A DNA stretch of 38,354 nt from contig JAFEEX010000026.1 of assembly GCA_018240895.1 (NCBI GenBank), forward strand, positions 1-38,354, in the 5' to 3' direction. Both the position numbers and the translations under genes were made by a program. This stretch comes from Pseudomonadota bacterium (lineage in GTDB: Bacteria > Pseudomonadota > Alphaproteobacteria > Sphingomonadales > Sphingomonadaceae). Shown here piece by piece: positions 6,370 to 9,342 of the stretch (the stretch's first letter is position 1; each line of letters opens with the position of its first letter). Below the pieces are notes generated by a model, which had not been told where the DNA came from, ran no database searches, and saw only the letters and a program-made list of their open reading frames with translations.

Positions 6370-9342
6370 ATGACCGACACCGCGCTAGACAAGACCTTCG
6401 ACCCCGCCGCGATCGAGGCGAAGTGGTATGCCCATTGGGAGGCAAACGGCCTGTTCCGCCCAGACCGGCCGAACGCCCAGCCCTTCACCATCGTCAACCC
6501 GCCGCCCAACGTAACGGGATCGCTGCACATCGGCCACGCGCTGGACAACACCTTGCAGGACGTAGTGATCCGCTATGAGCGGCTGCGCGGCAAGGATGCG
6601 CTGTGGGTGGTCGGCACCGATCACGCCGGCATCGCCACGCAAATGGTGGTCGAACGGCAGATGGAAGCCGCGCAGGACAAGCGCACCAATTACACCCGCG
6701 AACAATTCGTGGACAAGGTGTGGGAATGGAAAGCCGAAAGCGGCGGGACGATCACCCGCCAGCTGCGCCGCCTGGGCTGTTCAATGGACTGGAGCCGCGA
6801 ACAGTTCACCATGGACCCGCACTTCACCAAGGCGGTGGTGAAGGTCTTCGTCGATCTTTACAACGAAGGGCTGATTTACCGCGACAAACGGCTGGTCAAC
6901 TGGGATCCGCGCCTGAAAACCGCAATCTCTGACCTTGAGGTGGAGACGCGCGAGGTAAAGGGCAGCTTCTGGCGCTTCCGCTATCCCTTCGCCGACGGCA
7001 GCGGTTCGGTTGAGGTGGCGACCACCCGGCCCGAGACGATGCTGGCCGACATGGCCGTGGCGGTGAACCCGGAGGATGAGCGCTATAAGGCGGTGATCGG
7101 CAAGGACATTCTCCAGCCGATCACGGGCCGCACCTTCAAGGTGGTGGCCGATGAACACGCCGACCCCGAACTGGGCAGCGGCGTGGTCAAGATCACCCCG
7201 GGGCACGATTTCAACGACTTCGAAGTGGGCAAGCGCGCCGGGATCAAACCCGCCGATATGCTCAATATGTTCGATGCCGAAGCAAAGGTGGTGCAGACCG
7301 CCGATGGGCTGGTGCCGGACGAATTCATCGGCATGGAACGTTTCGCCGCCCGCAAACTGGTGGTCAGCCGCATGAAGGAACTTGGCTTCCTGATCCCCCA
7401 TGTCGACAAGGACGGCGCGGAACATGACGCCGAACCGCGCACCATCCAGACCCCCTTCGGCGACCGCGGCGGGGTGGAAATCGAACCGTGGCTGACTGAC
7501 CAATGGTATGTCGATGCCAAGGTGCTGGCCCAGCCCGCGATAGAGGCGGTGAAAAGCGGCGCGATCGAGATCGTGCCAAAGACCTGGGAAAAGACCTGGT
7601 TCCACTGGATGGAGAACATCCAGCCCTGGGCAATCTCGCGGCAGTTGTGGTGGGGGCACCGGATTCCGGCGTGGTATGCGCCCAAGGTAACGTCCTCTGG
7701 CGGCAAAACCACTTATCACTCGGGCTTCTCGATCGACGGGAACAACCCCCCAGTGATGACAAATCCAAACATCTCCGTCGCGGAGTCCTACGAGGACGCG
7801 GTGACAATTCTGAAAGCTCAGTATCCAGAGAACGTGGGCTTTGTCCGCTGCGATAGCTGGGAAGATTGGCGGCGGATCATTCTGAATGGGATTGCGTCAG
7901 GGCAGCACCCAGGAGTTGACGGAAATCCAGTCCCCGTTGTGCGGGACAACGACGTCCTCGACACCTGGTTCTCCTCGGCGCTGTGGCCCTTTGCCACGCT
8001 GGGCTGGCCGGACGCACAAGTCCCTCCCCTTCAAGGGGAGGTGGCAGCGCGTAGCGCTGACGGAGGGGTGTCGCCCCCTCCGGCAAGCGCGACACCCCTC
8101 CACCACCCTGCGGGCGGTCCCCCTCCCCTTGCAGGGGAGGCAAATCTGCTCGCGCGCCACTATCCCAACGATCTCCTTATCTCCGGCTTTGACATCCTGT
8201 TCTTCTGGGATGCGCGGATGGCGATGCAGGGGATTCACTTCATGAACGAGGTGCCGTGGCGGCGGCTGTACCTTCACGGGCTGGTCCGCGCCGCCGATGG
8301 CCAGAAGATGTCCAAGAGCAAGGGCAACGTGGTCGATCCGCTGGGCCTGATCGACAAGTACGGGGCCGATGCGCTGCGCTTTTTCATGGCGGCGATGGAA
8401 AGCCAGGGCCGCGACGTGAAGATGGATGAGCGCCGGGTTGAAGGCTATCGCAACTTCGCCACCAAGCTGTGGAACGCGGCGCGGTTCTGCCAGGCCAACG
8501 GCATCGGCGCGAGCCACTCGATCAAAGCGCCCCCCGCCACCAGCGCGGTCAACAAGTGGATCACCGGCGAAGTGGTGGAAACCCTGGCCGAGCTGGACAA
8601 GGCCATGGCCGACCTGCGCTTCGATGCGGCGGCCAACGCGATCTACCACTTCGTCTGGGACCAGTTCTGCGACTGGTACATCGAGCTGATCAAGGGATCG
8701 TTCGACGATGAAACCAAGGCCGTGGCCGGCTGGGTGCTTGACCAGATTCTGGTGATGCTCCACCCGTTCATGCCCTTTGTGACGGAGGAGTTGTGGGCCA
8801 AGCTGGGCGACCGGGCCAACTATCCGCTGATCACCGCGAAGTGGCCGGAGCCGGGCGCAAAGGTGGACGGCGCGGCCAAGGCCGAGGTCGATTGGCTGAT
8901 CGCGCTGATCGGCAACCTGCGCACCGCCAAGAACGAGCTTGGCATAGCTCCCGGTGCCAGACTCGACGCCTACCTGCCTGCCCCGAGTACAGCAACGCGC
9001 GGCATCATCGAGCGCAATCCAGCGGCGATCGAACGTCTCGCGCGGCTCAGCGCCATCCGCTTCGAGGCTGCCCCGGCGGGCGCGGCGATGCAGATTGGCG
9101 TGGGGGATGCCAATGTGGTGGTTCCCCTTGAAGGCGTGATCGACATCGCCGCTGAAAAGGCCCGTCTGGCCAAGGCGCTTGAGGTTTCGGCCAAGGAAGC
9201 CAAGGCGCTTGAGGGGCGGCTCTCCAACGCCGCCTTTGTCGAGAAGGCCAAGCCCGAAGCGGTTGAGAAGGCCCGTGCGGACCATGCCATGCACGCGGCC
9301 GAAGCCGAGCGGCTGGCGGCAGCGTTGCAGCGATTGGGGTGA
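6370..9342 (+). CDS. valS: Valyl-tRNA synthetase, with in-frame insertions
   Basis: Class Ia aminoacyl-tRNA synthetase that charges tRNA-Val in the cytoplasm. The 990-residue product shows [15 protein letters not shown] with HIGH at residues 53-56, an editing (CP1) domain with [10 protein letters not shown], the [10 protein letters not shown] segment, [22 protein letters not shown] from about residue 646, the anticodon-binding region ([13 protein letters not shown]) and a C-terminal coiled-coil tRNA-binding arm. ATG 6370 is preferred over upstream in-frame starts because the usual N-terminus begins there. It is longer than typical bacterial ValRS: about 40 residues (551-590) are encoded by a palindromic repeat at 8021-8141, and a second unusual stretch lies at about residues 438-520. 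The frame stays open throughout, so it looks functional. Confidence 0.96.
8021..8141. repeat. palindromic repeat element inside valS
   Basis: A block of three inverted repeats in about 120 bases: a near-perfect palindrome at 8023-8041 (CCTCCCCTT/CAAGGGGAGG), a 13-bp perfect stem formed by 8062-8074 and 8089-8101 with a 14-base loop, and another palindrome at 8122-8140 (CCTCCCCT and AGGGGAGG arms). This arrangement is like dispersed, normally intergenic, repeats of sphingomonads and rhizobia whose translated frames contain PPLQGE-type peptides. Here it sits in frame between [18 protein letters not shown] and the [14 protein letters not shown] segment of ValRS and is translated without a stop. 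Confidence 0.8.

Follow-up and report, generated by a model that had tools for sequence, protein, structure and literature searches.

The analysed window, a stretch of 38,354 nucleotides from a genome of the family Sphingomonadaceae, carries on its + strand the gene valS for valyl-tRNA synthetase (ValRS), which runs from an ATG at 6370 to 9342 and encodes 990 aa in a frame that is open from 6286. The product is a full valine--tRNA ligase (NCBIfam NF004349/TIGR00422; Pfam PF00133, PF08264 and PF10458) and is homologous to the ValRS of T. thermophilus (PDB 1gax). In a slot between a motif of 17 residues and one of 13 residues, the gene contains a palindromic element at 8020-8142 on the + strand, a net in-frame insertion of 123 nt or 41 codons. 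The element comprises a left terminal hairpin (CCTCCCC..GGGGAGG, 8022-8041), a small hairpin supported by sequence and fold (CAGCGC-GTA-GCGCTG, 8045-8059), a perfect central stem of 13 bp (8062-8101, with 8062-8074 inverted at 8089-8101) and a right terminal hairpin (CCTCCCC..GGGGAGG, 8121-8140), the two terminal hairpins being 90% direct repeats of each other. The outer inverted-repeat arms (8014-8044 and 8119-8149) are 81% complementary. As RNA, the GC-rich stretch 8018-8144 has a minimum free energy of -85.4 kcal/mol against a mean of -56.25 for 200 dinucleotide shuffles, none of which (0/200) was as good (z = -7.55), and no stop interrupts the valS frame across the whole element. The initial annotation had described an in-frame palindrome with inverted repeats in valS, and its arms, stem, open frame and fold are all confirmed.

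A scan of the window against Rfam at the gathering threshold returned only a bacterial class A RNase P RNA (RF00010; 23745-24153, - strand) and no known RNA family at the valS element. The AlphaFold model of ValRS, made from an alignment of 30 similar sequences (A1), has a mean pLDDT of 62.5 and a poor catalytic core; its quality does not suffice for placing the insert, which appears in it as coil with a pLDDT of 27-36.

The insertion is visible from comparison with relatives. In L050, the closest relative read, whose ValRS is 93% identical to that of the window in alignment A1, the slot from the GWP to the YPN motif holds 9 codons only, while the window slot consists of flanks totalling 9 codons plus exactly 41 extra ones. 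Since the flanks alone make up the full length of the empty site, 9 codons, the net insertion can be placed at about 8020-8142. The 41-residue segment is also absent from T. thermophilus ValRS (1gax), on which the slot falls between about residues 472 and 476. Searched against its own genome, the element gave 19 rows. Two are the self match and its reverse, and the remaining 17 fall at 10 different places, where mostly the arms were matched in part. By ORF reading, seven of these places look intergenic (for example pdxJ/acpS, nuoG/nuoH and hisA/hisF, gene names being assigned by eye without search), two border a DUF559 gene and one lies inside trmD. The stretch 8020-8142 is almost certainly an inserted copy of a dispersed palindromic element. 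Among the initial proposals, those that some 40 residues are missing in relatives, that the segment is kin to a dispersed repeat and that copies of this repeat normally lie between genes were borne out: many relatives, the closest included, are without the 41 residues, and most copies look intergenic, one more being in frame in trmD.

Recurrent insertions at the valS slot

A valS match was obtained in 193 family genomes; the slot was read in the best-scoring 130, of which 36 have an in-frame insert. Slot length is bimodal: of the 129 genomes that could be parsed, 94 have 9-12 aa and 35 have 24-59 aa, and the 130th (L197), read by eye, is filled. Among the named genomes, represented by the best 80 of 392 and sharing six loci with the family set, 51 have 9-12 aa and 29 have at least 16 aa, the shortest being 16, 20 and 22. 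After six loci with slots identical to others were dropped, 60 fills and 143 empty slots were retained, L197 not included. Although the occurrence of inserts in both genome sets would fit a segment inherited as an ordinary part of the sphingomonad enzyme, neither the closest relative read nor T. thermophilus has one, and among carriers the slot sequence varies, mostly matches dispersed repeats and follows no phylogenetic signal. This reading is ruled out by the empty sites and the dispersed copies, and its probability is negligible.

The fills share the character of the window element. A fold z below -3 was found for 51 of the 60 (median -5.3) versus 4 of 120 valS control stretches of the same length, and of the nine fills that do not reach this value five are short and relic-like. 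Matches to DNA outside valS were obtained for 54 of the 60 (E <= 1e-3, in 546 kb of fetched flanks), some of them being matches to the unmasked valS of L197. By regular-expression labels on peptide motifs, which are not curated families, the fills fall into groups A (14), B (30), C (10), D (4) and E (1), with one other, L219, set apart from B. In a DNA graph at E 1e-4, groups A, B and C form one component of 54, the four D fills stand together, and L210 (E) and L219 stand alone. The short fills L082, L087, L190 and L220 look like relics. L082 retains a single terminal hairpin, as would result from loss of the sequence between the terminal direct repeats.

The genome of the window is in 104 contigs and 89% complete, features that could suggest an assembly artefact of metagenome bins. 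Filled slots occur, however, in the named isolates N. hassiacum (L065), N. colocasiae (L083) and N. lentum (L088) as well as in the single-contig genome G094 (L026). These fills refute the artefact, to which we assign next to no probability.

The history of the fills was analysed on a valS gene tree built with FastTree after removal of the two variable stretches of the gene. The group labels of the 60 fills require at least 58 changes on this tree, with a mean of 57.1 and a minimum of 52 for shuffled labels, and the filled/empty state alone requires 49. With nodes of less than 0.9 support collapsed, the values are 59 for groups and 52 for filled/empty, with shuffled means of 58.1 and 53.7 (L219 was labelled B in the count of 58 and set apart in the collapsed-node count). 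Parsimony against shuffled labels detected no phylogenetic signal of the fills at this sampling; the changes counted are gains, losses and transfers together, not gains alone. Transfer and new insertion could both leave the fills without signal, so that recombination of valS segments between species might have spread the fills and the number of insertions might lie far below 58. We consider this improbable. Among the close pairs listed, the inserts belong to different groups or one of the two is missing, and only the pair L064/L070 visibly shares the sequence beside the insert, which looks inherited, though the tree does not unite the pair. Many independent insertions at this one slot are very probable.

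A second slot in trmD

Both valS and trmD are translation genes that are generally held to be essential. In the own genome, trmD (C37; L017, 905-1789) carries an in-frame palindromic insert, and the identity of TrmD was confirmed by domain search. Its slot has 65 residues versus 18 in empty relatives. With the own TrmD as query, matches were found in 117 of 119 family genomes, of which 16, the own included, align through the insert. The slot measures 47-65 residues in the 15 of these 16 loci that could be parsed, and 18 residues in all 11 parsed of the next 14 loci (L306, L319, L323 and L326 were unparsed and stand outside these counts). In the remaining genomes the listed TrmD alignments split at the slot, which suggests that a like insert is absent there. 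The 15 TrmD inserts, the own one among them, are all similar to a valS insert, and 11 match the arms of DUF559 genes described below.

An adaptive role, such as regulation of ValRS through an mRNA hairpin or escape from an inhibitor directed at ValRS, could be read from the recurrence at one slot of an essential gene. The fills differ, however, in sequence and length, TrmD shows a like pattern, the relic-like short fills (L082, L087, L190 and L220) suggest decay, and tolerance is the simpler explanation. We regard adaptation as quite improbable.

DUF559 genes between inverted arms

The two own-genome copies noted above that border a DUF559 gene adjoin small ORFs assigned to this domain by Pfam. 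Bracketing of DUF559 genes was scored as an inverted pair with E <= 1e-4 lying within 350 nt on either side of the domain match. Among 92 loci, which were the best-scoring ones returned plus two of the own genome and no random draw, such a bracket surrounds 70. The genus accounts for 27 of 32 (with the own three among the 32), the family for 26 of 30 and the remaining families of the class for 17 of 30. No bracket was seen in any of 497 control windows, of which 300 were drawn at random in named valS loci and 197 lay in DUF559 loci at a distance from the gene. The arms are 72-100% identical, have a median length of 44 nt and lie mostly less than 100 nt from the domain match, and the median span is 458 nt. 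The 22 genes without a bracket comprise five in the genus, four in the family and 13 in other families; of the own genes, C30 and C39 are bracketed and C32, one of the five, is not. An active-site-like motif of the D..E-x-D-G-x-x-H type is present in 88 of the 92.

Many of the inserts in valS resemble these arms. A DUF559 arm is matched at E <= 1e-4 by 43 of the 60 valS inserts versus none of 60 control valS stretches. No arm match was obtained for 17 inserts, namely L129, L219 and every one of the 15 in groups C, D and E, and no partner gene for groups C-E was found in the data examined. Sharing between a valS insert and a DUF559 arm of the same genome was seen in 3 of 10 pairs, in two of them over at most 24 nt, with one or two loci compared per genome. 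DUF559 is present in 167 of 199 family genomes (E <= 1e-10). Genomes with filled valS slots have more copies than those with empty ones (mean 3.3 vs 2.0, median 3 vs 1; Mann-Whitney p 2.6e-5), lack the domain less often (0 of 36 vs 11 of 94; Fisher p 0.03) and more often have a strong match (30 of 36 vs 43 of 94), kinship being ignored in all three comparisons. The number of DUF559 matches reaches 13 in G168, 9 in G116 and 8 each in G091 and G031, as expected of multiplication.

At orthologous places the DUF559 element is either present or absent. The own pntAA/pntAB spacer (names by eye) has the arrangement arm-DUF559-arm, and this element is absent in the closest relative compared there (G493) and also in G494, G496, G172 and G111. 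G501 has the element: its sequence aligns with the whole own locus at 80%, and the arms match on both sides. Four more genomes have other, unmatched sequence at this place. Between trpA and accD (names by eye), the own stretch is missing entirely in G494, G495, G172 and G501; at about 809 nt it is longer than the bracketed element, which makes this the less clean place. The trpA/accD spacer of G496 resembles a bare palindrome, but the 3' part of the DUF559 gene is matched as well, which makes it a decayed remnant with arms. Inspection by eye of the valS, pntAA/pntAB and trpA/accD sites that were compared revealed no clear target-site duplication. The extra spacer sequence of five trpA-accD and four pntAA-pntAB relatives gave no match to an arm or insert at E <= 1e-6; these spacers (L383-L387, L375 and L377-L379) may be general insertion sites.

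The two main groups of fills, A and B, most likely represent shortened forms of elements that encode DUF559, and DUF559 is more likely than not the driver of the two groups. Alternatively, DUF559 may be a passenger, a nuclease of repair or restriction type that sits in insertion-rich intergenic sites while machinery of another kind or of the host spreads the palindromes, as by replication slippage or gene conversion. This would agree with the occurrence of palindromes without DUF559, with the lack of an arm match in groups C-E and with the sharing of arms in few same-genome pairs, and also with the accessible text on Caulobacter VsrA, a DUF559 protein predicted to be a mismatch-repair endonuclease (PMC12907096). 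The inverted arms, which flank most of the DUF559 genes and none of the control windows, and the presence or absence of arm-DUF559-arm as a unit at pntAA/pntAB speak against a passenger role, which we hold to be possible, with an appreciable but lesser probability.

A RAYT (Y1 transposase) was also considered as the mover, as for REP/BIME palindromes. The own genome has one Y1_Tnp gene, which lies 53 nt from a contig end and whose left side is hardly visible. The domain occurs, however, in only 7 of 119 family genomes, and the DNA fetched around all seven genes contains no match to any valS or trmD insert (E <= 1e-3). With Y1_Tnp rare and its surroundings unmatched, this mover is rejected on present data and is very unlikely.

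Relation to known elements and proposed origin

In-frame palindromes are best known from Rickettsia, the original papers on the Rickettsia palindromic elements (RPEs) being reportedly those of Ogata and colleagues, and we know of no mover established for them. REP sequences, which are associated with RAYT genes, are short GC-rich hairpins between genes, and the flanking of a gene by inverted copies is a likeness shared with the elements studied here. The gene flanked here is, in contrast to REP/BIME, a DUF559 nuclease and not a Y1 transposase, Y1_Tnp being rare and unconnected. As in MITEs, a short non-autonomous copy with terminal inverted repeats appears to correspond to a longer element that carries a gene; unlike in MITEs, the long element carries DUF559 and no known transposase. 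No target-site duplication was seen by eye at the places compared. The proteins have the same domain as the DUF559/Vsr-like endonucleases (PF04480; Caulobacter VsrA; NCBIfam PRK09767), but the genes here are mostly bracketed by inverted arms. The accessible text on VsrA contains neither the word palindrome nor the term intergenic repeat (PMC12907096).

According to the accessible text of PMC10969869, RPEs are palindromes of about 150 bp in ten families, with nearly half of their copies in ORFs, where in-frame fusion is possible, and other bacterial MITEs inside genes include ERIC, BOX and Coxiella QMITE1. The likeness to RPEs proposed in the initial annotation fits as an analogy, drawn from description and not from sequence. 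In common are the size, the palindromic fold, the copies elsewhere in the genome and the in-frame insertion in unrelated protein genes, here valS and trmD. The hosts, by contrast, are not Rickettsia, the named relatives being mostly Novosphingobium and other Sphingomonadaceae; the element is GC-rich, several repeat groups re-invade one slot, and there is a candidate autonomous partner in the DUF559 element. In-frame palindromes of Rickettsia and MITEs inside genes are thus already known. In the open-licence literature, which covers few subscription journals and was available in part, no report of sphingomonad or valS insertions or of DUF559 with repeats was found.

Taken together, the inserts are probably RPE-like selfish DNA in free-living sphingomonads that would derive from DUF559 elements, an explanation we hold with good confidence. 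A dispersed palindromic element landed in a length-tolerant stretch of ValRS and would be translated as 41 residues rich in proline, glycine and alanine, presumably tolerated as a loop. It has presumably survived since it is open in this frame and its net length is divisible by three. Across Sphingomonadaceae, palindromic repeats of at least five peptide-motif groups have invaded this slot many times and, it seems, independently. Groups A and B would be the short forms of elements of about 460 bp with a DUF559 gene between two inverted arms, and the putative mobility enzyme, a PD-(D/E)XK, Vsr-like nuclease, probably acts on the arms and so drives the spread. Copies can shrink afterwards, perhaps when the sequence between the terminal hairpins, themselves direct repeats, is deleted.

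In its widest form, this proposal holds that arm-bracketed DUF559 genes are widespread minimal mobile elements of about 460 bp, with one nuclease and no known transposase, and that their gene-less derivatives, which would make up many of the GC-rich palindromes in Alphaproteobacteria, are selfish DNA that codes for protein in frame and settles again and again at fixed safe sites of essential proteins, as in ValRS and TrmD; we see the chances for and against this generalisation as evenly balanced. If DUF559 proves to be the mover, the link would represent a new kind of minimal mobile element. An RPE-like phenomenon is frequent here in free-living, partly culturable bacteria and at fixed slots of two translation genes, and a concrete candidate enzyme makes the mover of small palindromic repeats testable at the bench. 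The origin of new protein segments from selfish DNA likewise becomes a testable question, as does the role of DUF559, which Pfam lists as a domain of unknown function.

ValRS has a second stretch of variable length, at about 7675-7935 of the window, between an 11-residue motif and DVLDTWFSS. It has 38-39 residues in many relatives and about 60-104 poorly conserved ones in others, including the window. In L032, L049 and L083, this stretch contains an insert whose peptide resembles RHSRE.GNP...PRL.G(D/N)D and looks by eye like a further dispersed repeat in translation.
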